A stretch of 53,740 nt of DNA from Longimicrobium sp. (GTDB lineage: Bacteria > Gemmatimonadota > Gemmatimonadetes > Longimicrobiales > Longimicrobiaceae), in contig DASUYB010000098.1 in assembly GCA_036377595.1 (NCBI GenBank), forward strand, positions 1 to 53,740, in the 5' to 3' direction. Of the stretch, positions 4,372 through 47,705 are shown in pieces (the first letter of the stretch is position 1; the number at the start of each line of letters is the position of its first letter). Made by a program: the position numbers and the translations under genes. Below the pieces are notes generated by a model. It saw only the letters and a program-made list of their open reading frames with translations, did no database searches and had not been told where the DNA came from.

Positions 4372-4397
4372 AGCCTCCGCAGTTCCACGCGGAGGCT
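4372..4397. terminator. Hairpin downstream of the ParB-B gene
   Basis: AGCCTCCGC pairs with GCGGAGGCT around an 8-nt loop, 24 bp past the minus-strand ParB-B stop codon. On the plus strand it is followed by TTGAGTTT; on the minus strand there is no U-run. A terminator for the four-gene operon is inferred from position. Confidence 0.45.
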
Positions 4398-4420
4398 TTG
4401 AGTTTCCTCATCGACGCCCT

Positions 4421-7397: not shown

Positions 7398-7448
7398 CCT
7401 CGTTCCTCGACTCGTGTCCCTCTCGCCGTCGGCCTAAATCGCAGCCTT

Positions 7449-8477: not shown

Positions 8478-8612
8478 CTCTCGTGTACCGGGGGGAGTGC
8501 TGTGAGGGAGGGAAACGCGATGGGGTGTCACCGAAAACTGGCGTATCCGTTCGTGAAGCGCAATTCCCACCCGTCCCCGGGAGCGAGTTCTGAGCTTCGC
8601 GCATCTGATTGC

Positions 8613-8630
8613 CCATTCCGGCCGGAATGC
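8613..8630. repeat. Island palindrome, copy 3 (CATTCCG-GC-CGGAATG)
   Basis: Third copy of the palindrome, upstream of the ParB-A operon and on the integrase-proximal edge. Arms are perfect over seven bases. The 8478-8983 interval has no convincing gene; this palindrome and a GC-rich stretch (8640-8690) are all I see there. Confidence 0.7.
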
Positions 8631-8983
8631 AGGTCAGCCGCTGCGGCCACGGCCGCGCCCGCCCCGGCCGTCGTCGCCGCGGGCCATCTTTACCCTCAGC
8701 TCGAGGGTGGCTTTCACGACCGCGACATGCGGAGCCTTGACCATGACGGCGATCTGCTGGACATGCTTAGCACCTGCCTTTTCATGTGATTTTCGCGCGC
8801 GGAAGCCGCGGCGACGGTCTCCGGGGTATCAGTAAGCAAACTGTCGCGCCCCAGCGTCTTGCCGTCCCTGAAGGTCCGGAAGCCCGGCATAGCCCGAAAC
8901 CTCGGCGCTTGGTAGGGCATCGCTGGAGGAGCGGCGACAGTTCGCCGATCGACCCATTGCACCGCTCGCGCTGACCCGACCCG

Positions 8984-9385
8984 ATGCTCCACGCGCTCAC
9001 CCCGGCCGACCTCCCCGAGACCTGGCGCGCGCTCGCCATGCAGCAGCGCAGCCTGGGCGCCGACGCGCAGGCCCGCACCCTCGAATGGTGTGCGGACCAG
9101 CTCACCACGGCCATGCTGCAGAAGGCGGACGAGCTCCTGAGCCTGCGCCGTGCAGCCCAGGAATCCGGCTACAGCGTGGACCATCTTAGCCTCCTCTTGC
9201 GTGAAGGAAGAATCCCGAATTCCGGACGCAAGGGCAAGCCGCTGATCCGTCGCAAGGACCTCCCGAGAAAAGCGGAGAAAACGAGGGTCAAACCTTGTCT
9301 TTCGCCGCTGAGTGGGTATGTTCCGGACAGGCTCTTCCGGGACATCATCCACTCCAAATTGGGAGATGATGATGCCCAAAGCTGA
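8984..9385 (+). CDS. Excisionase-like HTH protein
   Basis: 133 aa; its end overlaps the integrase start by a few codons. The middle contains a MerR/excisionase-type helix-turn-helix: LLSLRRAAQESGYSVDHLSL followed by LLREGRIPNSGRKGKPLIRR, the pattern in which the wing reads a lysine/arginine-rich sequence. The N-terminal part is an acidic helical stretch with no family match. Overlap with a tyrosine integrase gene and position beside a tRNA fit a recombination directionality factor or an integrase regulator. No strong ribosome site precedes the ATG. Confidence 0.7.
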   Translation: MLHALTPADLPETWRALAMQQRSLGADAQARTLEWCADQLTTAMLQKADELLSLRRAAQESGYSVDHLSLLLREGRIPNSGRKGKPLIRRKDLPRKAEKTRVKPCLSPLSGYVPDRLFRDIIHSKLGDDDAQS

Positions 9386-11374: not shown

Positions 11375-12745
11375 TTGACCCGGTTCTCGTTCGCCTCGGT
11401 TCGTTCCTGCACCCCGGCCAGCCGCGCCGCCCTCGTCGCGCGGGTGGCGGTGGCCGCCTCCATCGTGGGGGTCGCGCCCGCGGCGGAGGCGCAGGACCTG
11501 ATGGCGATGAACCGGGCGGGGCGCTGGGCCGAGGTGATCCCCGCGGCCGAGGTGCTCCTGCGCGACCCCGCGCTCTCCGCGGAGCGCGCGTGCGAGACCC
11601 GGGCGGAGCTGATCCACGCGGCCACCTACGCCGGGCGGGTGGAGAAGGCGCGCGAGGCCATGCGCGCCTTCGACGCCCGCTGCGCTTCCTTCCCGCAGGA
11701 CGCGTGGTTCCGCCGCGAGGTCCAGGCCCTCGCGGAGCGCCTCGGGTCCGCGCCCGCGGCCGGCATGTCGCGCACGGCGAGCGCGCCCCTCGCGGACGGG
11801 GGCGGATGGCGGGCCGGCAATGCCGCCGCGCTGGGGCTCGACACCGCCGCGCTGGCGCGGCACCGCGCGCTGTGCGAGGGCTCCGGCGCCGACGCCTGCC
11901 TGGTGGCCTTCCGCGGCCGGATCGTGCAGGAGTGGTACGGCCCGGAGTACCGCTACCCGATGCCCACCATGTCCAGCATGAAGTCGTGGACCGGGCTGCT
12001 CGCCGGGCTGCTGGTCGCGGACGGCAGGATCGGGCTGGACGACCCGGTGGCGCGCTGGCTCCCCGAGTGGCGCGCCGGCGCCGGGCGGGGCGTCACCCTC
12101 CGCCATCTCCTCACCATGACCGGCGGGCTGCGGCGGCGCTGGGGGCGGGGCCCGGGCGACGAGATGGTGGGCGGCGTCAGCGACAAGAACGCCCTCGTCC
12201 TGTCGCTGCCGCTGGAGCGCGCGCCCGGCGAGCGGTGGGAATACAGCAACGAGGGGGCGCAGCTCCTCTCGCCCCTGCTGGAGCGCGCGGCGGGGCGGCC
12301 GCTGCGGGAGTACGCCGCCGAGCGCCTCTTCGCGCCGCTGCAGATGGACTCCACCAGCCTGCGCCTGGACGGCGCCGGGCACGCCTGGACGTACGCCGAC
12401 GCGCGCACCACGCTGCGCGACTTCGCCAAGATCTGCCAGCTGGCGCTGGACGGCGGGCGCTGGAACGGCCGGCAGGTGGTGCCCGAGGCATGGATCCGCG
12501 CCTCGCTCACGCCTTCGCCGCGGAACCCGGCGTACGGCTTCCTGTGGTGGCTGGGGACGGATCCCACCGTCTACGCCACCCGCGGCTACCTGGACACCGA
12601 CTGCGAGGCCTATCCCGAATGGGGCCTGGTCGTCGCCCGCATGCAGGCCCGCCCCCGGCCCGGCGCGCAGCCGTACCGCACCCCCGGCACCACGCGCCTC
12701 CTGGCCGAGGTCGTCCGCCACCCTCTTCCCGCGCCCCGGCCATGA
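11375..12745 (+). CDS. Exported class C beta-lactamase-like serine hydrolase
   Basis: 456 aa; TTG start seven bases after GGGGAGAG. A signal peptide ends near AAEA-Q (about residue 39). Residues 40-130 form a helical Ala/Glu-rich segment. The hydrolase domain follows: SxxK nucleophile in SSMKSW (about 205), YSN motif in EYSNEG (about 290), and a C-terminal region matching the beta-lactamase/PBP-like family (family S12). These enzymes act on peptidoglycan stem peptides, beta-lactams, esters or amide-linked peptides in the periplasm. It heads the RiPP operon and overlaps the cyclase start (ATGA). A role in maturation, immunity or cell-wall remodelling is inferred. Confidence 0.8.
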   Translation: MTRFSFASVRSCTPASRAALVARVAVAASIVGVAPAAEAQDLMAMNRAGRWAEVIPAAEVLLRDPALSAERACETRAELIHAATYAGRVEKAREAMRAFDARCASFPQDAWFRREVQALAERLGSAPAAGMSRTASAPLADGGGWRAGNAAALGLDTAALARHRALCEGSGADACLVAFRGRIVQEWYGPEYRYPMPTMSSMKSWTGLLAGLLVADGRIGLDDPVARWLPEWRAGAGRGVTLRHLLTMTGGLRRRWGRGPGDEMVGGVSDKNALVLSLPLERAPGERWEYSNEGAQLLSPLLERAAGRPLREYAAERLFAPLQMDSTSLRLDGAGHAWTYADARTTLRDFAKICQLALDGGRWNGRQVVPEAWIRASLTPSPRNPAYGFLWWLGTDPTVYATRGYLDTDCEAYPEWGLVVARMQARPRPGAQPYRTPGTTRLLAEVVRHPLPAPRP

Positions 12746-13977
12746 CCGCCGCCGCACCCGCCGCGCCCCCGCTGACCCTGGCCGCGCGCGCGCTCCGCAT
12801 CGCCCGCGAGCGGCTGGCGCAGGCGATCGAGCTTCCCGACGGGAGCCTCACCTGGCACCCCGGCTACGGCGTGACCTTCGCGCCGGTGGACGACTCGGGG
12901 ATGTTCAACGGCCGCGTGGGCGACGCCTTCTTCCTGGCCGCCGTGCACGCCGCCACCGGCCGCGCCGAGATGCGCGACGCCGCGCTCCGCGCCACGGCCC
13001 CGCTCCGCGCCCGCATCCGCGCCGCGGGCGGACCCGAGGGGCTGCTGGCGGAGACCGGATACGGGCTGACGGGGACGGGCTCGATGGTCTACGCCCTGGT
13101 GCGGATGGCCGGCTTCCTGGGCGAGCCCGCGATGCTGGACGAGGCGCGCACGCTGGCCGCCGTCTTCACCCCCGACGCGATCGCGCGCGACGAGAAGCTG
13201 GAGATGTTCTGGGGGACGGCGGGGACGATCCCCGCGCTCTTCGCGCTGGCGGACGCCGACCCCGCCGGCGCGGCCGGGTGGACCGAGCGCGCTGTGTGGT
13301 GCGCCGGGCACCTGGCCGCCCATCGCCAGGCGGACCCCGAGACCGGGCTGCGCGCCTGGCCCGGCGCGCGCGGCGAGCTGGAGACCGGGTTCGCGCACGG
13401 GAGCAGCGGTGTGGCGCACGCGCTGCTCGAGGTGTTCAGGCGCACCGGCGAGCGGCGCTTCTACGACGCCGCGGTGGAAAGCTTCGCCTTCGAGCGCGCG
13501 CTCTTCCGCGAAGACGTGATGGACTGGCCCGACTCGCGGAGCGAGCCGGGGAAGATGATCGGCTCGTGGTGCCACGGCGCGCCCGGGATCGGGCTGAGCC
13601 GCCTGGCCGCGCTCGACGGGCTGCGCCCCGACGACGAGCGGGGCGTGGCGGGCGACCTCTTCCTGGCGCTGGAGAAGGCGGGGAAGCGGAAGAAGGGCGG
13701 GGTCGACAACCTCTGCTGCGGGCACTTCGGCCGCGTCGACTTCCTCCTCGAGACCGCCCGCCGGCTGGGGAACCCGTCGCTCGAGGCGCAGGCGCGCGCG
13801 CTGGCCGAGCAGCGGTTGCGGGCGACCGATCAGCGCGGCTTCCGCCTCCCCGAGCACGACACCGGGGGCGACGAGCACATGCGCACCGGGCTGTGGCAGG
13901 GCGCGCCGGGGATCGGCTACGCGCTCCTGCGGCTGGACGACCCGGCGCGCTTCCCCTGTATCCTCCTCCTGGCCTGA
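12742..13977 (+). CDS. Stand-alone lanthionine cyclase, LanM-like with CCG zinc motif
   Basis: 411 aa; the ATG overlaps the previous stop (ATGA). It corresponds to the C-terminal cyclase domain of LanM-type synthetases without the dehydratase: GFAHGSSGVAHALL (216-229), GSWCHGAPGIGLSRL (274-288) with zinc ligand C277, and NLCCGHFGRVDFLLE (323-337) with C325/C326. The CCG motif replaces the usual CHG third ligand and is known from ProcM-like promiscuous LanM cyclases. WQGAPGIGYALLRL and the CILLL ending are also typical. It would add cysteine thiols of the precursor to dehydro-residues in the cytoplasm. The dehydratases are encoded separately at the other end of the operon. Confidence 0.88.
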   Translation: MTAAAPAAPPLTLAARALRIARERLAQAIELPDGSLTWHPGYGVTFAPVDDSGMFNGRVGDAFFLAAVHAATGRAEMRDAALRATAPLRARIRAAGGPEGLLAETGYGLTGTGSMVYALVRMAGFLGEPAMLDEARTLAAVFTPDAIARDEKLEMFWGTAGTIPALFALADADPAGAAGWTERAVWCAGHLAAHRQADPETGLRAWPGARGELETGFAHGSSGVAHALLEVFRRTGERRFYDAAVESFAFERALFREDVMDWPDSRSEPGKMIGSWCHGAPGIGLSRLAALDGLRPDDERGVAGDLFLALEKAGKRKKGGVDNLCCGHFGRVDFLLETARRLGNPSLEAQARALAEQRLRATDQRGFRLPEHDTGGDEHMRTGLWQGAPGIGYALLRLDDPARFPCILLLA

Positions 13978-13988
13978 CCGGGGCGCGC

Positions 13989-15842
13989 ATGGTTCCTCCC
14001 CCCACCGGGAGCGGCGCCGCCGCCGACCCGGCGCCCGCCGAGGCGCCGGCGCTCCGCGACGCCTACGGCCAGTTCCGGCGGCTCACGCTGCTGATGCGCC
14101 CCTTCTGGCTTCCCCTGCTGCGGGGGATGGGGATGGGGGTGGTGGTGCAGCTGCTGGGGCTGGCCATGCCCTGGACCACCAAGGTGCTGGTGGACCAGGT
14201 GTACCCTTCCGGGAACGTGACGCTGCTGAACGTGGCGGTGGGCGCCGCGCTGGCCATCGGCGCCACCAGCCTGCTGCTGAACGGCGTCCAGAACTACTAC
14301 AACCTCACCGTCAACACCCGCCTCAACAACGCCGCGGGGCTCCTCTTCTTCAACCACCTGCAGCACCTTCCCATGCGCTTCTTCGAGGAGAACCGCGTGG
14401 GCGAGCTGATGAGCCGCTTCGGCGACGTACGCCGCGCGCTGCAGAGCGTGGCCCGCGTGTTCCAGACGCTCTTCCTGCAGGGGCTCTACCTCCTCCTCGT
14501 CCCCCCCTTCCTCTTCCTGCTGCACTGGAAGCTGGCGGTGGTGGCGCTGGTCAGCATCCCCCTGACCACCGCGGTGATCGCGCTGTCGGGCGGCGCCATG
14601 CGCAAGCGCTGGAAGCGCAGCGCCGAGGCCTACGCCGACCTCTCGGCCTTCCAGACCGAGGCGTTCACCCAGATCCGCACCCTCAAGTCCATGGGGCTCG
14701 AGGGGCACACCTTCGCCCGCGCCCGCGACAAGCTGACGCGGGCGATGGACGTGGAGCTGCGCGCCGGCGGGCTGGGGCAGATGGTGACCAGCACCAACGG
14801 GATCCTGGGCGCGCTGAACACGGCGCTCCTCACCTGGCTGGGGTGGCACTACATCGTCAGCGGGTCGATGACGCTGGGCGACTACATCGCCTTCACCGCC
14901 TACAGCGGCTACCTGTACGGCCCCATCAACCAGATGGTGGGCCTCTTCTCCGAGTTCCAGCAGTCGGCGGTCAACCTGGGCCGCATGTTCGAGTACCTCG
15001 ACGGCGAGCCCGAGCAGGACCCCCAGGGCGCGTACCGGGGCGAGGCCCCGCCCGCCGTGCACACCATCGCCCGGGGCGAGGTGGTGCTGGAGGACGTCGT
15101 CTTCGGCTACGCGCCGGAGAAGCGCGCGCTGGACGGGGTGAGCCTGCGGATGGCGCCGGGGACGGTCACGGCCATCGTGGGCCCCAGCGGCTCGGGGAAG
15201 ACGTCGCTGCTGCGCCTGCTCACGCGGCTGGAGCACGCCGGCGGCGGGCGGATCCTGATCGACGGCGTACCCGTCTCGCGCATCCCCCTGGCCGACCTGC
15301 GCCGCCAGGTGTCGGTGGTGTGGCAGGAGTACAGCCTGCTCTCCGGCACGGTGTGGGAGAACCTGACGCTGGGGATGGGCGCCGTGCCTCCCGAGCGGGT
15401 GTACCGCGCCTGCCGCCACGCGCAGGCCGACGACTTCATCCGCACCCTCCCCAACGGCTACCGCACCACCGTGGCCGAGGCGGGGATGAGCCTGTCGGGG
15501 GGGCAGCGGCAGCGGATCGCCATCGCGCGGGCGCTGGTGCGCGGCGCGCCCATCCTGCTGCTCGACGAGGCCACCGCCAACGTCGACATGGCCACGGAGG
15601 CGCGCATCCTGGAGACGCTGGTGCGCGAGTACCGCGACCACACCGTGGTGTTCGTCACCCACCGCATCGCCATGGCGCGCCACGCCGACCAGGTGTGCGT
15701 GCTGGAGAACGGCCGCGTGGCCGGGGTGGGGCCGCACGCGGCGCTGCTGCGCGAGTGCGAGGCGTACCAGCGCCTGCACGGCGGCCCGGTCTCCGTTCCC
15801 GCGGCGCCGGCGGCGGCGCCCCTCGCGGCGGCGGCCTCGTGA
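13989..15842 (+). CDS. ABC exporter, TMD-NBD half transporter
   Basis: 617 aa. About six transmembrane helices occupy residues 35-310 (for example the GMGMGVVVQLLGLAMPWTT and LYLLLVPPFLFLL segments), followed by an ATPase domain with GPSGSGKTS Walker A, LSGGQRQRIAIARAL signature, ILLLDEATANVD Walker B and the THR H-loop. There is no N-terminal C39 peptidase, so leader removal must be done by another enzyme, probably the S8 protease encoded downstream. It starts 11 bp after the cyclase gene and overlaps the next (GTGA). It likely exports the modified peptide as a homodimer. Confidence 0.88.
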   Translation: MVPPPTGSGAAADPAPAEAPALRDAYGQFRRLTLLMRPFWLPLLRGMGMGVVVQLLGLAMPWTTKVLVDQVYPSGNVTLLNVAVGAALAIGATSLLLNGVQNYYNLTVNTRLNNAAGLLFFNHLQHLPMRFFEENRVGELMSRFGDVRRALQSVARVFQTLFLQGLYLLLVPPFLFLLHWKLAVVALVSIPLTTAVIALSGGAMRKRWKRSAEAYADLSAFQTEAFTQIRTLKSMGLEGHTFARARDKLTRAMDVELRAGGLGQMVTSTNGILGALNTALLTWLGWHYIVSGSMTLGDYIAFTAYSGYLYGPINQMVGLFSEFQQSAVNLGRMFEYLDGEPEQDPQGAYRGEAPPAVHTIARGEVVLEDVVFGYAPEKRALDGVSLRMAPGTVTAIVGPSGSGKTSLLRLLTRLEHAGGGRILIDGVPVSRIPLADLRRQVSVVWQEYSLLSGTVWENLTLGMGAVPPERVYRACRHAQADDFIRTLPNGYRTTVAEAGMSLSGGQRQRIAIARALVRGAPILLLDEATANVDMATEARILETLVREYRDHTVVFVTHRIAMARHADQVCVLENGRVAGVGPHAALLRECEAYQRLHGGPVSVPAAPAAAPLAAAAS

Positions 15843-17707
15843 GCCCCGTCGCCCGCCCCCCGCGCGCCCCCGTCGCGCCGCGGGACCCCGCCGTGGAGGC
15901 GCGTGAGCGCTTCGCGCGCTTCGCCCCGGGCGTCCGCGCGGCGCGCCCGCCGAGCGCGGCCGAGGCGCGGATCCTGGACGCGTGCGCGGTCCCGCGCACC
16001 CTGCGCGAGCACGCCGCCGAGTGCGCGCGGGCGATTCCTCCCGCGCTGCTCGCCGGAGACGGCGGCGCCGTGCCCGCGGGGCGCGCGGCGCTGGAGGCGG
16101 CCGCCCTGGAGCGGCTCCGCCGCCTGGCCGGCGAGGGGCACCTGGTGGCCGAGGCGGAGCTCCTCGGCTGGCTGGGCGCGCGGCTCGAGGCGGGCGCCGG
16201 CTCATCTCCCGCGCCGCGCATCGGCGCGCTCTGCATCCCCACGCGCAACCGCCCCGGCACCCTCGCGCGCGGGCTGGAGAGCTGGCTCGAGCACGGCGCA
16301 CGCCACGGGCGGGAAACGGAGGTGGTGGTGCTGGACGACAGCGACTCGGCCGACGCACGCGCGGAGAACCGGCGGACGCTGCGCGCGCTGGCCGGCCGCC
16401 ATCGCCGCGCCGCCTTCGCCGCCGACCACGCGCGGCGGGGCGCGTACGCGCGCGTCCTCGCGGCCGCCGCCGGCGTGCCGGAGGAGACGGCCCGCTTCGC
16501 GCTGCTCGGCGACGCCCGCCTGGGCGCGACCTACGGCGCCACCCGCAACGCGCTCCTCCTGGACGGCGCGGGCGGGCTCTGCCTGCAGGTGGACGACGAC
16601 ACCCTGGCCACCGTCTGCCGCCCGCCCGGCGCCCGCGAGGAGCTGGCGCTCGCCCTCGCGCCCGACCCCAACGAGTACTGGTTCGCCTCCTCGTTCGACG
16701 CCGCGCTGGCGGCGGTGGAGGTGGTGGACGAGGACTTCCTGGCCGTCCACGAGCGCCTGCTGGGGAGCACGCCGGGGGAGTGCGCCGCCTCGGGGCGGAG
16801 CGGGCCCGCGCGGGTGGGCGTTCCCTGGGACGAGGCGTACCTGGCGCGGGTCTCCGAGCCGGGCGCGCGCGTGGCCGTGAGCTTCGGGGGGATCGTGGGC
16901 GACTGCGGGGGGCCGGGGCGCGCCCAGTGGCGGCTGGCGCTGCGCGGCCCCTCGCTGGAGCGCCTCGCCGCCGGCGCGGACGGGTTCGCGGCGCGGCTCC
17001 GCGCGCGGCAGCTGGTGAAGTGCACCACCCGCGCCGGCCTGGGCACGGGCGCGTACTGCATGGCGGGGAACATGGGGGTGGACCTGCGCGTCCTCCTCCC
17101 CCCGTTCGTCCCCGGCGGGATCGCCGAGGACGCGCTCTTCGGCACCCTGCGCGCGGCGCTCTTCCCCCGGCTGCTGAGCGGCTTCGTTCCTCGCGCCATC
17201 GTCCACCGTCCCCATCCTCCCCGTCCCGACCCGGCCCTCCCCGTCCCCCTGTCGACGTACGCCAACGGGGTGACCGGCGCGCTGGTGGCGGAGCATCTCG
17301 CCACCGGTCCGGCCGGCGAGGGCGCGGAGGCGCTGGGGATCCTCGGCGCGCATCTCGAGGCGCTCGGCGCGCTCGAGGCGGACGCGTTCGCCGCGCGGGT
17401 GCGGGAGGCGATGGGGCGGGCGGCGGCCGCGGCGGTGAGGCAGATGGAAACGCTGCTCGCCGCCACCCGCGGCGCGCCCCCGCATTGGCGCGCCGCCGTG
17501 GAGGAGAGCCGCCGCGAGACCGCGACGCTGCTGGAGCGCGAGGACCCGTCGGCCCCCGCCGACCTGCCGGGGAGCGACGATGCGCGGCGCGCGGCCTTCC
17601 GGCTCCTGCTGCGCGGCTACGGCCGGGTGCTGCGGAGCTGGCCGGCGCTGGTGGAGGCGGCCGCGGAGCTGCGCGGCCGCGGCGTGCGCCTGGCGGAGCC
17701 CGCGTGA
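15839..17707 (+). CDS. GT2-like glycosyltransferase-related protein
   Basis: 622 aa from a GTG in a GTGA overlap with the transporter. Residues 1-115 are helical and unassigned. From about 120 a GT-A-type nucleotide-binding fold is suggested by IGALCIPTRNRPGTLARGLE, EVVVLDDSDSADAR and LCLQVDDDTLATV, the last a DxD-like metal site. The remainder (PNEYWFASSFD, GTGAYCMAGNMG, FVPGGIAEDALFGTL) resembles an acceptor-binding part but is not one I can place. It may glycosylate the peptide or a cell-envelope acceptor; lone GT-like proteins occur in other RiPP operons. Coupling to the transporter and transglycosylase genes supports a role in the same pathway. Confidence 0.6.
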   Translation: MSPVARPPRAPVAPRDPAVEARERFARFAPGVRAARPPSAAEARILDACAVPRTLREHAAECARAIPPALLAGDGGAVPAGRAALEAAALERLRRLAGEGHLVAEAELLGWLGARLEAGAGSSPAPRIGALCIPTRNRPGTLARGLESWLEHGARHGRETEVVVLDDSDSADARAENRRTLRALAGRHRRAAFAADHARRGAYARVLAAAAGVPEETARFALLGDARLGATYGATRNALLLDGAGGLCLQVDDDTLATVCRPPGAREELALALAPDPNEYWFASSFDAALAAVEVVDEDFLAVHERLLGSTPGECAASGRSGPARVGVPWDEAYLARVSEPGARVAVSFGGIVGDCGGPGRAQWRLALRGPSLERLAAGADGFAARLRARQLVKCTTRAGLGTGAYCMAGNMGVDLRVLLPPFVPGGIAEDALFGTLRAALFPRLLSGFVPRAIVHRPHPPRPDPALPVPLSTYANGVTGALVAEHLATGPAGEGAEALGILGAHLEALGALEADAFAARVREAMGRAAAAAVRQMETLLAATRGAPPHWRAAVEESRRETATLLEREDPSAPADLPGSDDARRAAFRLLLRGYGRVLRSWPALVEAAAELRGRGVRLAEPA

Positions 17708-18579
17708 GCCGCGGCGTTCCCCCGGTCGGCCGCCTCCGCGCCGCCGATCCCGGCGTGACGGCGTACATGCGCGTCCGCGCGCGGGAGACGGGCGCGCCGC
17801 CGCCGGCGACGGAATGGACGCCGCTGGACCAGGTCTCCCCCTACCTGGCGTTCGCGGTGGTGAAGGCGGAGGACCCGCGCTTCTTCCGCCACCGCGGAAT
17901 CCACTGGCGGTCGGTGGCGGACGCGGCGTGGGGCGCGCTGCGCGGGTGGGGGGCGCGGGGGGCCAGCACCCTCACGCAGCAGCTCGCGCGCAACCTCTAC
18001 CTCTCTCCCGCCCGCAGCGTGGGGCGCAAGGCGCGCGAGGCGATCCTCGCGCTGCGGATGGAGCGGGCGCTGGACAAGGCGCGCATCCTGGAGCTGTACC
18101 TGAACGTGGTGGAGTGGGGCGACGGGACGTGGGGCGTGGCGCAGGCCGCGCGCCGCTGGATGGATCGCCGTCCGGCCGAGCTGGACGCGCACGACGCGGC
18201 GCTGCTGGCCGCCCTCCTCCCCGCGCCGCGCCGGGCGCTGGAGGGGAACAACGCCAACCGCGCCTGGTGGGTGCAGCGCTACGTCCTCTTCCAGCTCTAT
18301 CACGCCGGCCACCTGACGGCGGACGAATGGCGCGCGGGCGTGGCCCGGGCCACTTCGCTCTGCCGGCTGACCCACGCGGGGGTGGCGCTGGACGAGGCCG
18401 TGCGGAGGGTGCGCGAGGCGCTCCCCGCACCGGTGCCGGAACGGCGCGGGCTGGAGATGGGGGCGCTCCTGGCCGACGGATTCGGCGTGGACCGCCACGT
18501 CCTCTTCCACGAGACAGTGCGCACGTGGGAGCGCCTGCGCCGGCGGCCGTCCGCGCGGGTGCCCGCGCCGTCGGCCTGA
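17704..18579 (+). CDS. Peptidoglycan glycosyltransferase (GT51), no membrane anchor
   Basis: 291 aa from a GTG (GTGA overlap). The GT51 signature is intact: catalytic E56 in VKAEDPRFFRHRG (53-65), GASTLTQQLARNLYL (86-100), and RKAREAILALRMERALDKARILELYLNVVEWG with the second acidic region. This is the monofunctional transglycosylase (MtgA-like) fold that polymerises lipid II. The usual N-terminal transmembrane helix is missing; residues 1-45 are hydrophilic. GT51 genes are rare in RiPP operons. It could protect against a lipid II-binding product or build wall at the site of export. It is the last gene before the precursors, with a 244-bp gap. Confidence 0.85.
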   Translation: MSRGVPPVGRLRAADPGVTAYMRVRARETGAPPPATEWTPLDQVSPYLAFAVVKAEDPRFFRHRGIHWRSVADAAWGALRGWGARGASTLTQQLARNLYLSPARSVGRKAREAILALRMERALDKARILELYLNVVEWGDGTWGVAQAARRWMDRRPAELDAHDAALLAALLPAPRRALEGNNANRAWWVQRYVLFQLYHAGHLTADEWRAGVARATSLCRLTHAGVALDEAVRRVREALPAPVPERRGLEMGALLADGFGVDRHVLFHETVRTWERLRRRPSARVPAPSA

Positions 18580-18823
18580 GGCCGATGGAGCGCAAACCTC
18601 CATCCTGAGGCCCGCGAAGGACGCGCCTATTCGGCCTGCGTGCGCTAAGTAAAGGTGGTTTCGAACCGCAACATGTGAAGTAGACGACGGATTACGGCTG
18701 ATTGGTACAGGACGCGGTGGAGACTCCCGCGTTACCGGCGTGGGACGCGCCACTCAGGGCCGTCCCCGGCAGGGCCCGGACTTCGCCGGAGCCCCGATCA
18801 CCCACCTCCTCGGGAGGAAAGAC

Positions 18824-19096
18824 ATGCACGCGAAGCTGAACCTGAGTCTCGACGAACTGCGCATCCGTACCTTTACGCCCACCCTGGAAGAGGACGCCCC
18901 CGAGGGCGCCGTGCACGCGCTGTGCGGCGACTGCTCGAACTGCTCCGGCTGCACCGGCTGCTCGAACTGTTCGGACTGCAGCAACTGCTCGGACTGCAGC
19001 AACTGCTCGGACTGCACCGGCTGCTCGGACTGCACCAACTGCTCGAACTGCACCGAGTGCACCTCGTCGACCTGCTTCATCTTCACGCTGTACTGA
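18824..19096 (+). CDS. RiPP precursor 1, pinensin-type leader, Cys-every-third-residue core
   Basis: 90 aa; GGGAGG six bases before the ATG decides the start. The leader KLNLSLDELRIRTF (4-17) fits the (K/R)LxLx(L/I)(D/E)xLx(V/I)x(S/T)F pattern of pinensin-type lanthipeptides. From residue 34 Cys recurs at 34, 37, 40 and so on to 79 (16 Cys, period exactly 3), then C84 and a hydrophobic tail CFIFTLY. Fifteen of the sixteen period-3 Cys are followed by Ser or Thr, so every third residue could become Dha/Dhb next to a thiol. LanB/LanC-type processing is expected; no YcaO gene is seen. A metal-binding product cannot be excluded. The gap upstream (18580-18823) may contain its own promoter. Confidence 0.88.
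   Translation: MHAKLNLSLDELRIRTFTPTLEEDAPEGAVHALCGDCSNCSGCTGCSNCSDCSNCSDCSNCSDCTGCSDCTNCSNCTECTSSTCFIFTLY
18971..19042 (+). repeat. 18-bp tandem repeat inside precursor 1
   Basis: Four near-identical 18-bp units (TCGGACTGCAGCAACTGC and variants) within a longer 9-bp periodicity spanning the core (18923-19060). Each 9-bp step encodes Cys-Ser/Thr-x three times per 27 bases. Such repeats can expand or contract by slippage and change the number of Cys triads. Confidence 0.85.
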
Positions 19097-19112
19097 TCCG
19101 CCCCGGCGGGAC

Positions 19113-19143
19113 CCGGGCATGCCTCTCCGCGAGGCATGCCCGG
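19113..19143 (+). terminator. Hairpin between precursor 1 and precursor 2
   Basis: A perfect 13-bp stem (CCGGGCATGCCTC and its complement) with loop TCCGC, 16 bp after the precursor 1 stop; GC-rich flanks extend it. There is no U-run, so partial termination or mRNA 3'-end protection is more likely than full termination. It would make precursor 1 mRNA more abundant than the enzymes downstream. Confidence 0.65.
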
Positions 19144-19183
19144 TGCCCCCGCCGGCACGAACGAACCTTTTCGCCGCGGGGCG

Positions 19184-19399
19184 ATGCACGAACGGCTGAC
19201 ACTGACGCTCGAGGCGCTGCGGGTGCGGACCTTCGCCACCACGCCGGCGCCGCACGGCGAGACGGACGACGACGACTGCGGCGAGTGCACCGAGGCCACG
19301 CGCTGCACCGACTGGACGCGCTGCACCCGCTGCACCTGGCCCAGCTGCATCGCCACGGAGGACGATGGCCCCGACTGCCTTCCCGGCACCGTTGCCTGA
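19184..19399 (+). CDS. RiPP precursor 2, pinensin-type leader
   Basis: 71 aa. The leader RLTLTLEALRVRTF (4-17) matches precursor 1 position for position, including the RTF ending. The core begins after DDDD and has seven Cys with irregular spacing among Thr-rich segments (CTEATRC, CTDWTRC, CTRC, CTWPSC), giving many Thr/Ser for dehydration. It ends LPGTVA. The ribosome site (GCGGGG) is weak. Its 3' end overlaps the S8 protease start by 35 bp in another frame, so the two are probably co-translated. Same operon, same enzymes as precursor 1 is the natural inference. Confidence 0.82.
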   Translation: MHERLTLTLEALRVRTFATTPAPHGETDDDDCGECTEATRCTDWTRCTRCTWPSCIATEDDGPDCLPGTVA

Positions 19400-20288
19400 C
19401 GCGGCGGCGGCGCTCGCCCCGGCGGACCGCGGCGGCGGCCTCGCCCGCCTCTACGCGCCGCTGCCGCGCCCGCGCTGGGCGCGCGGCACCACGGGCCGCG
19501 GCGTGCGCGTGGCGGTGATCGACAGCGGGTGGGACCACGCGCTGCGCGTTCCCGGGCTGCGGCTGCGCCCCGGCGTCTCCTTCGCCGGCGGCGCGGGCGC
19601 GCCCCCGGCCGACGACGGAGACCGGATCGGGCACGGGACGGCGTGCATCTCCACCCTCTTCCGCGTGGCGCCGGAGGCAGAGATCTGCCCCGTGCGCGTG
19701 TTCGGCGACGCCTTCGACACCTCGGTGGCGGCGCTGCGCGCGGCGCTGGAGTGGGCGGTGCGCGAGCGCTTCGACGTGATCAGCCTGAGCCTGTGGACGC
19801 CGCGCGCCGACGCGCTCGTCCCCCTCTACGCCGCCTGCGAGGAGGCGCGGCGGTCCGGCGTGGTGATCGTCGCCGCCGCGCCGGACGATCCGCGGACGGA
19901 GCACGTCTATCCCGCCGTGTTCGGCAGCGTGCTGAGCGTGGGCGAGGGCCCCTTCGGCGACCCGTTCGACTATGCCTTCCGCCACGGCGCGGCGGTGGAG
20001 TGCCTGGCCGCGCCGGGCGACCACGGCGCCGTGCTCTGGCGAGGCGGGCCGCGCGACGGGATGTGGGGCTCCAGCTTCGCCGCGCCGAACGTGGCGGGGA
20101 TCGCCGCCCTGCTGTGCGAGCGCCACCCCGGCGCGGGGCTCGAGGAGGTGCGCGGCCACCTGGCGCGCCACGCCCGCCCGCTCCCCGCCGACGCGGAGGC
20201 CGTGCGCGAGACCCGCCGCGCGGCCGGGCGCACCGCGCACGACGCGGCGCGGCAACCATCTTCTTCTCCGGACCCCCGAGACGCATGA
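19365..20288 (+). CDS. S8 subtilisin-like protease, LanP-type leader peptidase candidate
   Basis: 307 aa with the Asp-His-Ser triad in order: D53 in VAVIDSGWD, H90 in GHGTACIS, S237 in WGSSFAAPNVAG. No signal peptide is obvious, so it may act in the cytoplasm or be exported unconventionally. The usual oxyanion-hole motif AAGN is changed to AAPDD (about 171-175), replacing the Asn by Asp, which may slow or specialise catalysis. Class I lanthipeptide operons often carry such LanP proteases to remove the leader; the exporter here has no peptidase, so this enzyme is the best candidate. Overlaps precursor 2 at its start and LanB at its end (ATGA). Confidence 0.85.
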   Translation: MAPTAFPAPLPDAAAALAPADRGGGLARLYAPLPRPRWARGTTGRGVRVAVIDSGWDHALRVPGLRLRPGVSFAGGAGAPPADDGDRIGHGTACISTLFRVAPEAEICPVRVFGDAFDTSVAALRAALEWAVRERFDVISLSLWTPRADALVPLYAACEEARRSGVVIVAAAPDDPRTEHVYPAVFGSVLSVGEGPFGDPFDYAFRHGAAVECLAAPGDHGAVLWRGGPRDGMWGSSFAAPNVAGIAALLCERHPGAGLEEVRGHLARHARPLPADAEAVRETRRAAGRTAHDAARQPSSSPDPRDA

Positions 20289-23146
20289 CCACGCTCGCGC
20301 CCCCGGCGCCCGAAACGCAAACCGACACCGAGCCGCTCGCCGAGGGCGGCGGCCTGTTCCCGCACTTCGTCTGCCGCCTGTCGGGGCTTCCCGTCGACGC
20401 GGTCGAGTCGCTGCGCGCGCCGCGCTGCGAGGCGCTGCTCGAGCGGCTCCGCGACGTCGAGCAGGCGCTGGCCGCGGCGCGCGAGCCGGTGTCGGCGCTC
20501 CTCTTCGAGGCGGTGCGGGCGGAGGAATCCCCGGAGACCCGCAAGCAGCTGGTGAACCTCCGCCGCGACCTCTTCAACCTCCGTCCCGCCCGCCCGGCGG
20601 CGCTGGAGGCGGCGCGAACGGCGCTTTCTCCCGACGCCCAGGCCGGGGTCGAAGCGTTCGCGGCGCGGCTGGACGAGCGCGGCCGGGTACTCGGCGAGCT
20701 GCGCGCGCGCTACGCGGAAGAGACGCGCGCCGCGCGGACCCGCTTCCGCGCGCTGCTGGGGGAGGAAGACTTCCAGAAGGGGCTCCTCCTTTCCAGCCCC
20801 GCGCTGCACACCGCGCAGGCGCGCTACCTGGAGAGCGACGCCGGCCGGCCCGGGGGGAAGGCGGAGAAGACGGAGCGCGGGCTGCTGCGCTACTTCACCC
20901 GCACGGCGATGAAGGCCACCCCGTTCGGCACCCTGTGCGCGATCGTTCCCGGCGAGGTGGTGCCGGCGGCGCCGGGCGAGCGCGGCGCGCGGCTGCGGCT
21001 GGGCGGCGACCCGCGGCGCAAGCGCAGCTCCACGCGGCTGAACAAGCAGATCTGCGGGGTGATCACGCGCTGGGTGAAGGCGAACCCCGCGCTGCGGCCC
21101 TTCCTGGAGGTCGAGCTGAACCCCACCCTCTCCGACGAGGGCGAGGAGATGGCGTTCCTGGCCGTCCACAGGGAGCGCGAGGTGTTCCAGCGCATCGAGA
21201 AGAACCCGGTGCTGGAGCTGGTGGCCGACGAGCTGGCCGCGCGCCCCCGCGTGTCGCTGAGCGAGCTGGCGCGCGCGCTGGCCGCCAGCCCCGCGGTGGA
21301 CGCCGGCGAGGACGTGGCGCTGGCCTACCTCGAGAAGCTGGCGGAGGCCGGCTTCCTCCGCTTCCGGCTGGGGATCCGCGAGCAGGACGCCGACTGGGAC
21401 CTCCCGCTCCGCGCCCTGCTCGAGCGCACGGGCGACCCCGGCGCGCTGCGGCTGGCCGCGCTCCTGGGCACGCTGCGCGAGCGGGCCGGGCGGTACGACG
21501 CGGCCGGGCCGGAGGAGCGCATCCGTCTCCTCGCCGACACCCGCGCGGAGCTGGAGGAGGCGCGCGCGGCGCTGAAGCTGCGCGGCCCCGGCTTCGCCGC
21601 GAACCTTCCCTTCCTGGAAGATTCCACCGCCGACGTCCCCGTCACCCTCGCGCGCACCCCCGAGGTGCGCGCGCTGGAGGAAACGCTGGCCGGGCTGGTG
21701 CGGCTGGCGCGCCGGGTGGCGGCCAACCGCGGCGAGCAGGCCGAGATGCGCCACTGGTTCGAGGCGCACTACGGCCCCGACGCCGCGCCGGTCCCGCTCC
21801 TGGCCTTCTTCGAGGACTTCAGCCGCGAGCACCTGAAGCCGCACGCCCTCCTCCAGCGCCGCGGCGATCCGGGCGAGCTCCCCGCGGGATACCGCCCTTC
21901 CAACCCCTTCGGCCTCCCCTTCATCGACGGGCTGCGCCGCGCCGAGCGCGCGCTGTCGGACCTGGTCTCGGCACGCTGGGCCGCCGCGCCCGGCGCCGAG
22001 GAGGTGGCGCTCTCGCGCGGAGACCTCGAGGCGGTGCTGGGCGGCGTTCCCGCGATGAGCCCCGACCCGGCCTCGGCGGCGGCGTTCGCCGAGCTGGTGG
22101 GGGCCGACGCGGGAGGAACGGCCCGGCTCATCCTCACCAAGAGCGCGTTCGGGATGGGGTTCGGGAAGTTCTTCTCCCGCTTCCTCCCGCTCTTCCCCGC
22201 GCGGGTGCAGCGCGACCTGCAGGAGGCCAACCGCGGCCCGGCCGACGGGTTCATGGCCGAGATCTGCGGCGACGGCAACCACAACGCCAACCTCCATCCC
22301 CCACTGGTGGCGCGGGAGATCAGCTATCCCACCGGCGAGAGCGGGGTGGCCGAGGAGCAGGTGCCCTCCACCGACATCGTCGTCGCCCCGCACCCGGCCG
22401 ATCCGCGCGCGCTCTGCCTGGTGCACGCCCCCACCGGCGAGCGGGTGGTGCCGGTGGACCTGGGGATCGTGAACCCCGGCTCGCGCCCGCCGCTGTACCA
22501 GCTCCTCTCGCGCTTCACCCCGCCGGTGGAGCTGTACCTGCGCCTCCCCGAGCATCCCTTCCACCTGGCGGGGATCCTCCGCGACCCCGCGCTGGAGCCC
22601 GCCGGGCCCGCCGAGCGCGCCGCGCGCGAGGCGGCGGAGCGCGAGGCGCTGGACCGCTACCTCACCTCCGTCACCCACGCCCCGCGGATCGTCTACGAGG
22701 GGTGCATCGTCCTGCGGCGGCGGCAGTGGGTGGTCCCCGCGTCGCTCCTTCCGCGGCAGGGCGCCGACGAGGCGCCGCTCGACTTCTTCCTGCGCGTGGA
22801 CCGGTGGCGGCGCGAGCACGGCATCCCGCGCGAGGTTTACGCCTCCATCCAGCCGCTTCTCGTGCTCCCGGGCGGGGGTGGGGGGATGGACGAGGTGAAC
22901 GGGCGCCCGGTGCCGCGCCGGGTGAGCCGCGCCTCGCTCAACCACCGGAAGCCGCAGTACGTCGACTTCGCCAGCCCGCTGCTGGTGGGGCTCTTCGGCC
23001 ACTTCGCGCCGGACGACGGCGACGCCTACTCGGTGCTGCTCGCGGAGCGCCTCCCCGGGGGGGATGAGCTTCCCGAGTTCGAGGGGCGGCGCTACGCGGC
23101 GGAACAGATCATCCAGGTGAACCTGTCCCATGCTCCTGGCGAGTGA
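20285..23146 (+). CDS. Lantibiotic dehydratase, N-terminal (glutamylation) part, LanB-N
   Basis: 953 aa; ATG overlaps the protease stop. Conserved LanB N-region features: LPVDAVESLR near the start, RRDLFNLRPARP (about 95-106), and FTRTAMKATPFGTLCAI (about 205-220), the family's TPFG motif. It lacks the C-terminal SpaB_C elimination domain, which is encoded separately in the next gene with a 17-bp overlap. In LanB enzymes this part transfers glutamate from Glu-tRNA to Ser/Thr of the precursor. A split dehydratase is known from pinensin-type clusters and thiopeptide systems. With the cyclase it would make lanthionine-type rings in the Ser/Thr/Cys-rich cores. Confidence 0.88.
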   Translation: MTTLAPPAPETQTDTEPLAEGGGLFPHFVCRLSGLPVDAVESLRAPRCEALLERLRDVEQALAAAREPVSALLFEAVRAEESPETRKQLVNLRRDLFNLRPARPAALEAARTALSPDAQAGVEAFAARLDERGRVLGELRARYAEETRAARTRFRALLGEEDFQKGLLLSSPALHTAQARYLESDAGRPGGKAEKTERGLLRYFTRTAMKATPFGTLCAIVPGEVVPAAPGERGARLRLGGDPRRKRSSTRLNKQICGVITRWVKANPALRPFLEVELNPTLSDEGEEMAFLAVHREREVFQRIEKNPVLELVADELAARPRVSLSELARALAASPAVDAGEDVALAYLEKLAEAGFLRFRLGIREQDADWDLPLRALLERTGDPGALRLAALLGTLRERAGRYDAAGPEERIRLLADTRAELEEARAALKLRGPGFAANLPFLEDSTADVPVTLARTPEVRALEETLAGLVRLARRVAANRGEQAEMRHWFEAHYGPDAAPVPLLAFFEDFSREHLKPHALLQRRGDPGELPAGYRPSNPFGLPFIDGLRRAERALSDLVSARWAAAPGAEEVALSRGDLEAVLGGVPAMSPDPASAAAFAELVGADAGGTARLILTKSAFGMGFGKFFSRFLPLFPARVQRDLQEANRGPADGFMAEICGDGNHNANLHPPLVAREISYPTGESGVAEEQVPSTDIVVAPHPADPRALCLVHAPTGERVVPVDLGIVNPGSRPPLYQLLSRFTPPVELYLRLPEHPFHLAGILRDPALEPAGPAERAAREAAEREALDRYLTSVTHAPRIVYEGCIVLRRRQWVVPASLLPRQGADEAPLDFFLRVDRWRREHGIPREVYASIQPLLVLPGGGGGMDEVNGRPVPRRVSRASLNHRKPQYVDFASPLLVGLFGHFAPDDGDAYSVLLAERLPGGDELPEFEGRRYAAEQIIQVNLSHAPGE

Positions 23147-24812
23147 CCCCGCGCCCCCGGCGCCGTGCGCCCTCTTCCACGCGCCGGGCCACGCGTGGCT
23201 CTCGGCGCACCTCTTCGTCCGCGGCAACGTCTACGGGCCCCCGGGCGACCGGGTGATCCTGGAGGTGGTCGACCCGTTCGTCCGCCACTGCCTGGAGCGC
23301 GGGTGGATCGCCGGCTTCTTCTTCATCCGCTACGGCGAGCTGGGGCCGCACGTGCGGCTGCGGATGTACGGCGATCCCGGCGTCCTCGCGGGCGAGGTCT
23401 CCCCCGCGCTGGAGGCGTGGCTGCAGGACGCGCCCGCGGGCCTGCTGGCGGCGCCGCGCGAGGAGCCCACGGCCGTCACCCGCCCCTCGCGGGCCGAGGC
23501 GCTCCGCTGGATCGCGTACGAGCCCGAGGTGGAGCGGTACGGCGGCGATGAGGGGATGATGCTGGCCGAGACGCTCTTCCGCGCATCGAGCGAGGCCTGC
23601 ATCGAGCTGATGCGCGGCGCCGCGCTGGCCGACCGCTCCGTGCGGCTGGGGCGGGCGCTCCCCGCGCTGGTCGTGTCCCTCGCCCTCTTCGGGGGCGACG
23701 CCAGGCGCGCGGCCGAGCTGGCCCGTCTGCATCGCGACTCGTTCGTGGGCGACCCCGAGGTCGGGGGGGACAAGGGTTATGCGGAGGTGTTCGACGCGGG
23801 GATGGCGGCGCAGGAAGCGACGGTGCGCGACCGGGTGGAGGCGTTCTGGACGGCCGCGCGCGAGGGCGTCCCCCTTCCCGCGCCGCTGGACGGCTACCTC
23901 GACGGGCTCGCGGCCCACCGCGCGCGGCTGCGCGCGGCGGTGGAGGCGGGGCGGCTGGTGCTCGGCGGGAAGAGGGTGGAGACGTGGGACGAGGCGTGCC
24001 GCGGGCTCCTTCCCAGCTACGGCCACATGACGTGCAACCGCCTGGGCGTCACCTATCGCGAGGAAGGCTTCCTGCTCCACATGATCGCCCGCGTGCTGGG
24101 CGGCGGCGAATCCCCGCGCCCCGCGGCGGTGCGCCCGGCCGGCCTTGCGCGCGTCCCCGCGGACCGGGTGGGCGATGGATACGAGCAGGTGGTGATCCGC
24201 GCGGACCTCGAGGCGCCGTACCTCGAGGCGTACCGGCGGGTGCGAGCGCTGGGGGGGATCCTGACCTCCAGCGGGGGGATCCGGGAGCTCCGCGCGGCCG
24301 CCGCGCCGGGGCGCAGCCGCACCAGCGTGCACTACACCGGGCGCGCGATCGACCTCTACATCCGCACCGGGATGCAGGGGCCGGACGACCGCTACGCGAT
24401 CGTCCGCGACGGGGGGACGGACGAGCGTCCGCTCTGGCGGGTGTACTGCGCCGGCGAGCCGCCCGACCCCGCCGACCCGCTCCACGACCCCGCGCTGGTG
24501 CGGGAGATGGAGCTGGAGTGCGCGCTCTGGCGGCCGGGGGGGATCGAGACGGTGCGGCGGCGCGGCCGGTGGATCTGCCTGACCGACCTCCTGGCCGAGG
24601 CCGGCTGGCACCGCATCCCCGCGCGCGCGGACTGGCGCGACAACTACCTGTCCGTGGAGTGGTGGCACTTCCAGCACCACGGCGGCCTGGTCGCCGGCCA
24701 CACGCGCTTCGGCGACGAGCTTCTCCGCGCCTGGCCCGCCTCGCGCGTGGCGGAGAGCGGGCTGGCGCTCGACGCCGTCTGGACCGGCCTCTCCTTCGAC
24801 CCGCCGGAGTGA
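23130..24812 (+). CDS. SpaB_C elimination domain fused to M15/VanY-like peptidase
   Basis: 560 aa. Residues 1-340 match the SpaB_C/thiopeptide-type family: AWLSAHLFVRGNVYG, then FFFIRYGELGPHVRLRMYGD (about 63-82), and SYGHMTCNRLG. They would remove glutamate to form dehydro-residues. From about 350 the sequence changes to a peptidase M15-like (D-Ala-D-Ala carboxypeptidase) domain: SVHYTGRAIDLYI with H401 and D408, and VEWWHFQHH with E510 and H513, the full zinc/catalytic set. I know of no standard LanB partner with this fusion. The M15 part could trim the peptide or act on wall precursors. It is the last gene of the operon, so it may also be read from an internal start. Confidence 0.8.
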   Translation: MLLASDPAPPAPCALFHAPGHAWLSAHLFVRGNVYGPPGDRVILEVVDPFVRHCLERGWIAGFFFIRYGELGPHVRLRMYGDPGVLAGEVSPALEAWLQDAPAGLLAAPREEPTAVTRPSRAEALRWIAYEPEVERYGGDEGMMLAETLFRASSEACIELMRGAALADRSVRLGRALPALVVSLALFGGDARRAAELARLHRDSFVGDPEVGGDKGYAEVFDAGMAAQEATVRDRVEAFWTAAREGVPLPAPLDGYLDGLAAHRARLRAAVEAGRLVLGGKRVETWDEACRGLLPSYGHMTCNRLGVTYREEGFLLHMIARVLGGGESPRPAAVRPAGLARVPADRVGDGYEQVVIRADLEAPYLEAYRRVRALGGILTSSGGIRELRAAAAPGRSRTSVHYTGRAIDLYIRTGMQGPDDRYAIVRDGGTDERPLWRVYCAGEPPDPADPLHDPALVREMELECALWRPGGIETVRRRGRWICLTDLLAEAGWHRIPARADWRDNYLSVEWWHFQHHGGLVAGHTRFGDELLRAWPASRVAESGLALDAVWTGLSFDPPE

Positions 24813-34217: not shown

Positions 34218-34418
34218 ATGAAGAACGAGATCGAGGACTTCGTGGACGAGGGCGAGGAGCTGATCGCCGAGGTACGCGCGGCTCGCCACCGGATCTCCGA
34301 GCGCTTCGGACACGATCCGTACAAGCTCGTCGCGTACTACATGGAGCGGCAGAAGGCGCACGCCGAGCGGTTGATTCGCGCGCCGGAAGATGCTCGGACG
34401 GCGATATCCGCCGGGTAG
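34218..34418 (+). CDS. Small conserved-pattern protein, antitoxin-like
   Basis: 66 aa with ribosome site GGGGAAG before the ATG. The sequence EVRAARHRISERFGHDPYKL followed by VAYYMERQ fits the small helical proteins with an (E)xRxxRxxIxxxxGxD pattern that accompany toxins in other genomes. No toxin is next to it. Its terminator is the strong hairpin at 34443-34477. Function unassigned; antitoxin-like is only an analogy. Confidence 0.7.
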   Translation: MKNEIEDFVDEGEELIAEVRAARHRISERFGHDPYKLVAYYMERQKAHAERLIRAPEDARTAISAG

Positions 34419-34499: not shown

Positions 34500-34733
34500 C
34501 TAGCAGCGGGGGAAGAAGGTATCGCAGCCCGTCTGGGTGCACGTGCAGGTGCCGAAGCAGGTGTCGTTCGGCGTCTGGCACTGGGGCTTCGAAACGCCGC
34601 AGTCCGGGTAGCCGGTGCACCATTCGGACTCGATGGTGTCGTTGCCGCGCACGGTGCCGACCCGGCCGTGCGCGTCGCCCGTCGCGAACGAATCCACCTT
34701 CAGGGTGTCGATCTTCAGCGCCAGCTTGGCCAT
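34500..34733 (-). CDS. Orphan RiPP precursor P3, pinensin-type leader
   Basis: 77 aa; ribosome site GGAGGAA before ATG. The leader KLALKIDTLKVDSF (3-16) has the same pattern as the operon precursors about 15 kb to the left. A shared spacer AHGRVGTVRGNDT follows, then a core with eight Cys: WCTGYPDC, GVSKPQCQTP, TCFGTCTCTQTGCD, FFPRC. It is 53 bp from the paralogue P4. There are no biosynthetic genes within 9 kb, so it probably relies on the enzymes at 12-24 kb or on a locus elsewhere. Thr content near Cys fits lanthionine chemistry. Confidence 0.83.
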   Translation of the reverse strand: MAKLALKIDTLKVDSFATGDAHGRVGTVRGNDTIESEWCTGYPDCGVSKPQCQTPNDTCFGTCTCTQTGCDTFFPRC

Positions 34734-34785
34734 GAGTTCCTCCGGTGAGGGAAGTGACTGTCACGATCGCGTGGCGGCATCCCGG

Positions 34786-35016
34786 TCAGCAGTTGGGCGC
34801 GATGGTATCGCAGTTCTCGGTGCAGCCGCAGGTGCCGTAGCAGGTGCGGCGGGGCGTCTGGCAGCCGTGCTGCGAGACGCCGCAGTCCGGGTACCCGGTG
34901 CACCATTCCGTCTCCACCGTGTCGTTGCCGCGCACGGTGCCGACCCGGCCGTGCGCGTTCCCGGTGTCGAACGAGTCGACGCTCAGGTTGTCCAGTTTTA
35001 GTCCCAGCTTCCGCAT
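34786..35016 (-). CDS. Orphan RiPP precursor P4, paralogue of P3
   Basis: 76 aa from ATG 35016 with AAGGAGG at an ideal distance; an in-frame upstream ATG (35064) lacks one. Leader KLGLKLDNLSVDSF (3-16), then AHGRVGTVRGNDT as in P3. Core: WCTGYPDC, GVSQHGCQTP, TCYGTCGCTENCD, IAPNC, eight Cys aligned with P3. Conserved Cys, Pro, Gly and leader but changed loop residues suggest selection for the scaffold with diversification between rings. The 35017-35286 gap carries an AT-rich stretch (about 35085-35120) that may be the promoter for both genes. Confidence 0.85.
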   Translation of the reverse strand: MRKLGLKLDNLSVDSFDTGNAHGRVGTVRGNDTVETEWCTGYPDCGVSQHGCQTPRRTCYGTCGCTENCDTIAPNC

Positions 35017-37356: not shown

Positions 37357-37472
37357 CAGGGATGGACGTCGGGCGTGATCAGGAGACCCGCTCGCGCGCC
37401 GGAGCACGCAAAAGCCGCGCGAGCTGGACACCACTGGGGGAGGCTGTCGGGGAGGGGCGAATGAATTCGCTG

Positions 37473-37631
37473 CAACAACCACACGAAGTCCCCCTGCGGG
37501 GACTACGGGCTTCGGCGCTGTCCAAGCCGCGGCGCTCGGTCCCGACAATCGTGCGAAGCCAGTCGCGAGCACCAACATCCCGGACCAACGAGAGCATGTA
37601 GTCCGCGAAGGCGGACTTCGTGTGGTTGTTG
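37473..37631. repeat. Hairpin repeat R1, left of the IS66 element
   Basis: Arms CAACAACCACACGAAGTCC and GGACTTCGTGTGGTTGTTG are complementary; each arm carries a small GC hairpin (CCCTGCGGGGACTAC; GTAGTCCGCGAAGGCGGAC). R2 (39127-39281) is the same unit inverted. A partial copy lies at 47657-47705. Confidence 0.85.
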
Positions 37632-39120: not shown

Positions 39121-39126
39121 TCGCGG

Positions 39127-39281
39127 CAACAACCACACGAAGTCCGCCTTCGCGGACTACCGGCTCTGGTGAGGACGCGACAGCGGCGCTCGCAACGAGC
39201 ATCCATTGCGTGCCCCGAGCGCCGCCGTCTCGTCGGCACCGAAGGCAGTAGTCCCCGAAGGGGGACTTCGTGTGGTTGTTG
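39127..39281. repeat. Hairpin repeat R2, right of the IS66 element
   Basis: Inverse of R1: its left arm is the exact complement of R1's right arm (CAACAACCACACGAAGTCCG...), its right arm nearly that of R1's left. Internal loops of R1 and R2 differ in sequence. Nested palindromes flank the IS symmetrically. Confidence 0.85.
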
Positions 39282-39327
39282 CTGCGAATTTATTCGCCCC
39301 CTTCTTCCCCCCAATTCTTTCCCCTAA

Positions 39328-47656: not shown

Positions 47657-47705
47657 GCAGTCCCGCAGGGACTTCGTGCTCTTGTTGCTGCGAATTCATT
47701 CGCCC
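47657..47705. repeat. Partial R-type repeat upstream of ppk
   Basis: GCAGTCCCGCAGGGACTTCG, then TTGTTGCTGCGAATTCATTC: matches the outer arm of the R1/R2 hairpins. The 47561-47866 gap holds this repeat and otherwise nothing I can assign apart from the likely ppk promoter after 47780. Confidence 0.65.

Follow-up and report, generated by a model that had tools for sequence, protein, structure and literature searches.

Two small cysteine-rich precursor peptides, P3 and P4, are encoded in a stretch of Longimicrobium sp. DNA of 53,740 nucleotides (the window), and the locus raises the question of which enzymes act on them. The answer that we regard as probable is a class I lanthipeptide system that spans the genome, in which the enzyme set on contig C103 of the same genome modifies P3 and P4 in trans.

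The P3 and P4 locus

Both precursors that an earlier note had described at 34500–35016 were found as open reading frames on the minus strand, each with an 8-Cys core and with AHGRVGTVRGNDT in common (Table 1). They are 72% identical to each other, and a GGAGG-like ribosome-binding site lies directly upstream of each. At the DNA level they form a tandem duplication (79% identity over 212 nt, spacing 283). Around the pair lie a 66-aa ORF and the genes for FtsY, a TonB receptor and an IS66 transposase; none of these neighbours encodes a lanthipeptide enzyme, as the note had said. The order TonB receptor, single P3/P4 ortholog, 66-aa ORF and FtsY is kept in the related genome G306, and one further ortholog is present in G286. 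Therefore, the locus is old and vertically kept. The duplication most simply arose within the window's lineage. A Pfam search of P3 and P4 gave no family up to E 10, no double-Gly cleavage motif was evident in their sequences, and neither a scan of named genomes nor a plasmid search found relatives.

Other features of the window were recorded. The 66-aa ORF (34218–34418), between the precursors and ftsY, is 72% identical in G306 and belongs to no known family. A dispersed short repeat (GGACTTCGTGTGGTTGTTGC...) occurs at 37467–37538, 39121–39192, 39262–39299 and 47668–47705, beside IS66 and elsewhere, and is matched in the relatives' loci too. An island at 1–10649 encodes HATPase-like proteins, an SNF2 helicase (domain-level ZorD/DpdE matches), an integrase-like ORF and two proteins with weak PADLOC candidate-defence matches that by eye are ParB-like. 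The PADLOC matches at 1–9 kb are at the domain level only, and the island is possibly a defence or mobile element.

Table 1. Coordinates of the precursors, of the window operon used as comparator and of the domain predicted on the C103 cyclase (window positions unless a locus is given).
Feature	Position	Strand	Remarks
P3 precursor gene	34733..34500	minus	77 aa, 8 Cys; leader model E 7.5e-14; orthologs in G306 and G286
P3 leader, residues 1-33	34635..34733	minus	
P3 core, residues 34-77	34500..34634	minus	Thr-Cys pairs as in P4, the last being T72-C77
P4 precursor gene	35016..34786	minus	76 aa, 8 Cys; tandem copy of P3; leader model E 3.3e-14
P4 leader, residues 1-33	34918..35016	minus	MxKLxLxLDxLxVDSF block and GTVRGND block
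P4 core, residues 34-76	34786..34917	minus	conserved T40-C45, T54-C59, T58-C63 and T71-C76, candidate rings
Window lanthipeptide operon	11375..24812	plus	comparator, not the enzymes proposed for P3/P4
Beta-lactamase-fold hydrolase	11375-12745	plus	window operon
CCG-type LanC, 411 aa	12742-13977	plus	window operon
P1 operon precursor	18824-19096	plus	comparator outside the dispersed system; diverged leader without GTV block
P2 operon precursor	19184-19399	plus	comparator outside the dispersed system; diverged leader without GTV block
LanB_N	20285-23146	plus	window operon
LanB_C	23130-24812	plus	window operon
TglI/NGO1945-like RRE domain fused to class I cyclase	L039:12821-13600		C-terminus of C103 LanC, predicted

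A dispersed precursor family and its cores

P3 and P4 are two of about 220 similar precursor genes scattered over one genome. The genome scan with the leader that the earlier note had proposed was run, and it confirmed the family and put its size far above what the note had foreseen. The genome, 7.2 Mb, is a bin of 208 contigs with 96% completeness and 4.8% contamination, and the pinensin-leader model (NF038180) already matched it at many places. A leader model built on an alignment of 66 leaders gave at least 150 matches in the genome search, all with E of 4.2e-9 or below and P3 and P4 among them, and at least 191 ORFs reached 25 bits or above; these lie at 99 sites of 58 contigs (0.92 Mb of DNA). 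The reversed-ORF control gave 0 at this score, and no match of even 10 bits or more was found among 14,184 reversed ORFs. The frames of the 191 verified ORFs are intact and their starts are mostly ATG; every one of the peptides has at least 2 Cys, and a typical one is about 72 aa long and has 6 Cys. The total of about 220 rests on a whole-genome census with a DNA pattern of 42 bases (95% sensitivity on the 191 verified ORFs), which found 222 sites against 1 in the control. Four additional sites found by the pattern only were checked, and all four encode Cys-containing precursors. A mixture of strains in the bin as the source of the high count was ruled out because pairs above 60% identity never span different contigs. 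The same pattern found 189 sites in G306 and 154 in G286.

The family leader consists of two blocks, KLxLxLDxLxVxSF and then GTVRAH, ahead of hypervariable Cys/Thr-rich cores. The sequence that the note had seen as shared by P3 and P4 is present in both; it is the second conserved leader block of the whole dispersed family, GTVRG(N/H)D, and not specific to the pair. P3 scored 21.6 bits against the NF038180 cut-off of 24 bits and P4 did not match, while nine other places in the genome pass. Therefore, P3 and P4 are termed pinensin-like rather than members of NF038180. K-mer and EM searches of 113 upstream regions found no positioned motif, so co-regulation of the precursors is unsupported; the regions show a mild AT-rich dip near –100.

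Selection on the cores was analysed with 31 reciprocal-best ortholog pairs with G306. Pooled over these pairs the core dN/dS was 0.53, and 226 of 235 core Cys (96%) were kept, against 803 of 1227 other residues (65%). By residue, Cys is the most conserved (0.97) and Thr the next (0.87). For P3 and P4 against the G306 ortholog, the core dN/dS was 0.33–0.38 and all eight Cys were retained. Judged by these substitutions, the cores are under selection and functional. The same values bear on the idea that P3, P4 and most of the dispersed copies are decaying, untranslated relics. Some family members are indeed short or lack the GTV block; however, the constrained cores, the intact frames with mostly ATG starts and the ribosome-binding sites ahead of P3 and P4 all speak against decay, and we consider it highly improbable.

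Relative to Cys, Ser/Thr is over-represented at –1 (z 19) and –5 (z 17) and depleted at –2 to –4, and the signal at –5 survives removal of CxxxC or of the coupling with –1 (z 4.7 to 8). Across P3, P4 and both orthologs, four Thr(i)–Cys(i+5) pairs never change, whereas the intervening residues differ. This spacing was considered as a discriminator of the two enzyme sets of the genome and dropped: the window precursors P1 and P2 also have Ser/Thr at –5, so it cannot identify the enzyme set.

The composition of the cores could also be read in another way, in which the dispersed genes encode microproteins that are exported, are rich in disulfides and carry no lanthionine, and whose leader serves only a transporter and a protease. 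Cys makes up 16% of core residues, even Cys counts are somewhat commoner than odd ones (112 to 79 in 191 cores), and the C103 locus does encode an exporter and a protease. However, odd counts are still common, and Thr follows Cys in conservation and stands at fixed spacings from it. Besides, the precursors occur only in genomes with LanB, and the cyclase itself bears a predicted RRE-fold domain (see below). Taken together, this evidence makes the disulfide explanation unlikely.

Two enzyme sets in one genome

The genome holds two complete lanthipeptide sets, the window operon (C98) and C103:89.2–105.3 kb, and PF04738, PF14028 and PF05147 are over their cut-offs at both. The LanB glutamylation and elimination domains and the LanC cyclase of a class I system are thus present in the genome, and P3 and P4 do not adjoin them as a class I precursor would its enzymes. 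The C103 set consists of LanB_N, LanB_C, a 704-aa LanC, an ABC transporter, HlyD and an S8 protease. Of the 191 precursors, 10 are local to it, no further than 10 kb from its enzymes, and most of these have the two-block leader. The window operon also encodes an ABC transporter, a transglycosylase, P1 and P2, and an S8 protease. A weak LanC-like match was seen at C145. The S8 protease of C103 (L154:3719–4834) resembles QhpE (NF049966, below cut-off) and is a candidate for leader removal.

The earlier note had assigned P3 and P4 to the CCG-type cyclase set of the window, on the basis of a leader shared with P1 and P2. Scored with a leader model built without P3/P4, the C103-local or the operon precursors, P3 and P4 reach 49.7 bits, the C103-local precursors 32–51 and P1/P2 22–25. 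A loose relation of the leaders therefore stands, whereas the GTV motif is absent from the P1 leader (KLNLSLDELRIRTF) and the P2 leader (RLTLTLEALRVRTF) and neither matches the strict motif. The zinc ligands of the C103-type LanC are CHG and those of the window LanC are CCG. The CCG-type cyclase of the note is thus the window type; the set that tracks the dispersed precursors is of the CHG type.

Co-occurrence was compared in 21 genomes of the family. Leader genes and LanB are found in an identical 10 of the 21; the chance of such overlap is 1 in 352,716 under an independence of genomes that does not hold, and this test takes no account of phylogeny. The co-occurring set is LanB, LanB_C and a stand-alone LanC and not a class II LanM. 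All 8 genomes with at least 11 precursors carry a C103-type LanB, and these form one clade with C103 (support 97/97). Outside this clade are the window LanB and those of G300 (5 precursors, 61% complete) and G251 (1 precursor). G306 and G286 have one full-length LanB each, of the C103 type. G251 is without a C103-type LanB; its LanC resembles the window LanC, and its sole precursor is a P1-like CxxC-repeat peptide beside its LanB.

The enzymes for P3, P4 and the dispersed family are most likely the C103 set and not the window set, because LanB phylogeny, cyclase type and the G251 comparison all agree. The note had held that a second complete set elsewhere, paired with P3/P4-like precursors, would count against its assignment, and C103 is such a set. 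The window set, perhaps with cross-talk between both sets, still has some points in its favour as the one acting on P3 and P4 in trans: it lies on the same contig at 10–15 kb, its leaders are still related, P1 and P2 share the –5 spacing, and both sets encode LanB, LanC, ABC and S8 protease. However, its C98-type LanB is not part of the clade that goes with the dispersed precursors, and G251, with a similar LanC, has only the one P1-like precursor. Moreover, the P3/P4 ortholog is kept in G306 and G286 with C103-type LanB, and the window LanC lacks the extension described below. We rejected the window operon as the cognate set on the position of its LanB, the G251 comparison and the enzymes present in G306 and G286, and this assignment is now quite unlikely.

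Several observations on the window-type loci were made. P1 has as its core a CxxC/CSNC repeat with 17 Cys, and the P1 look-alike of G251 (L182, about 9242, minus) lies beside the LanB outside the C103 clade; this suggests that P1-like peptides are a separate cis-only subtype. The transglycosylase (PF00912, 17704–18579) lies inside the window operon, as does the hydrolase; the two may have to do with targeting of the cell wall or with self-protection. The window LanB_C has about 230 extra C-terminal residues (24120–24812), VanY/M15 peptidase-like by eye, in which Pfam found nothing at E 0.001. A 622-aa operon protein (15839–17707) has by eye a GT2-like glycosyltransferase segment and no Pfam or NCBIfam match. 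In G300 (L183, contig C45) one LanB is flanked by two LanCs, one of the CCG type and the other C103-like, and this locus is possibly a hybrid of both sets.

A C-terminal extension of about 250 aa was present in 6/6 C103-type LanCs examined, from six genomes, and the window LanC is without it. The AlphaFold model of this part (260 aa; pLDDT 79, pTM 0.74) has the winged-helix RRE fold, about 115 residues at the C-terminus, as a predicted structure. Its closest likeness is to TglI (Foldseek E 1.4e-6, Z 13.1 over 207 residues, 14% sequence identity) and NGO1945 (Z 11.4); the RREs TbiB1, lasso B1, MibB and PqqD gave Z 8.2–9.3 (TbiB1 9.3). PF05402 (PqqD) scored 15.3–15.6 bits on the extension, with a cut-off of 23.4. 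The DUF2063-type protein 3DEE has been described as an RRE (PMC12710340). From the model we infer that the C103 cyclase may directly bind the common leader, which would explain one cyclase serving so many cores. A candidate for the recognised motif is the LxLD-like LKLD/LKID of the leaders, because FxLD-to-LxLD variation is reported for lanthipeptides (PMC12710340).

For the C103 system as a whole, we infer the following steps of modification, leader cleavage and export, together with a ring pattern and a biological role. About 220 scattered genes would supply the same two-block leader before hypervariable cores. The split class I set of C103, comprising the LanB glutamylation protein, a separate elimination protein and LanC, would read this leader, dehydrate Ser/Thr and close thioether rings, largely from Thr(i) to Cys(i+5). 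The RRE-fold domain of the cyclase probably holds the leader, so that one cyclase could act on many cores. The subtilisin-like S8 protease would then cut off the leader, and the ABC/HlyD exporter would secrete the product. Most likely, the secreted products form a library used in interactions with other microbes.

Known systems and significance

Closest to the present case are ProcM and SyncM, with 29 and 79 precursors, and one Synechococcus genome that has 143 putative precursors and two ProcM-like enzymes (PMC10783134). SyncM was named the most flexible reported in a 2025 review (PMC12328550). The likeness to prochlorosins and synechococsins consists of one or few synthetases, many dispersed precursors, a conserved leader, a hypervariable core and isolated or tandem genes. 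The in trans, ProcM-like logic that the note had proposed is thus supported as the simplest reading of leader-bearing precursors without local enzymes. The differences are that ProcM and SyncM are class II and the system here is class I with split LanB plus LanC; that the leader is pinensin-like and not Nif11/GG; that the proposed cyclase is CHG with a predicted RRE-fold domain and not of the ProcM-like CCG type; and that the precursors number about 220.

Pinensins (NF038180; Chitinophaga) are also similar. P3 matches profile positions 2–27 of the family (E 1.5e-4), the pinensin LanB is likewise split into glutamylation and elimination proteins (PMC7268733), and the LanC here matches LanM-type LanC domains, as reported for pinensin-associated LanCs (PMC7268733). 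However, P3 and P4 are below the family cut-off, and a dispersed genome-wide set is not described in the pinensin papers found. TglI and NGO1945 (DUF2063-type) have the fold that is predicted for the last 260 aa of C103-type LanC; here the fold is fused to a lanthionine cyclase, whereas TglI-type proteins partner an iron oxidase. In the open literature we found no paper on a LanC–RRE fusion and none on such a dispersed class I set.

The count of about 220 exceeds 143, the largest published count found (class II, Synechococcus). If one enzyme set processes all of them, the dispersed set would be the largest single-genome peptide library of its kind known to us. On balance we lean towards the wider statement that, in several genomes of one Gemmatimonadota family, a class I machine with a cyclase–RRE fusion acts on about 200 precursors scattered over each genome and read in trans, as the largest known RiPP library of a single enzyme set. 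The 2020 lanthipeptide survey searched within seven genes of LanC (PMC7268733), and surveys confined to the LanC vicinity miss over 90% of the family genes.

ProcM-like enzymes of class II are known to draw on dispersed pools, and the same strategy would now appear in class I. For the handling of many cores by one enzyme, a leader-binding domain on the cyclase is a structural candidate mechanism. The set may serve as a natural library for leader-guided promiscuity and new ring topologies.
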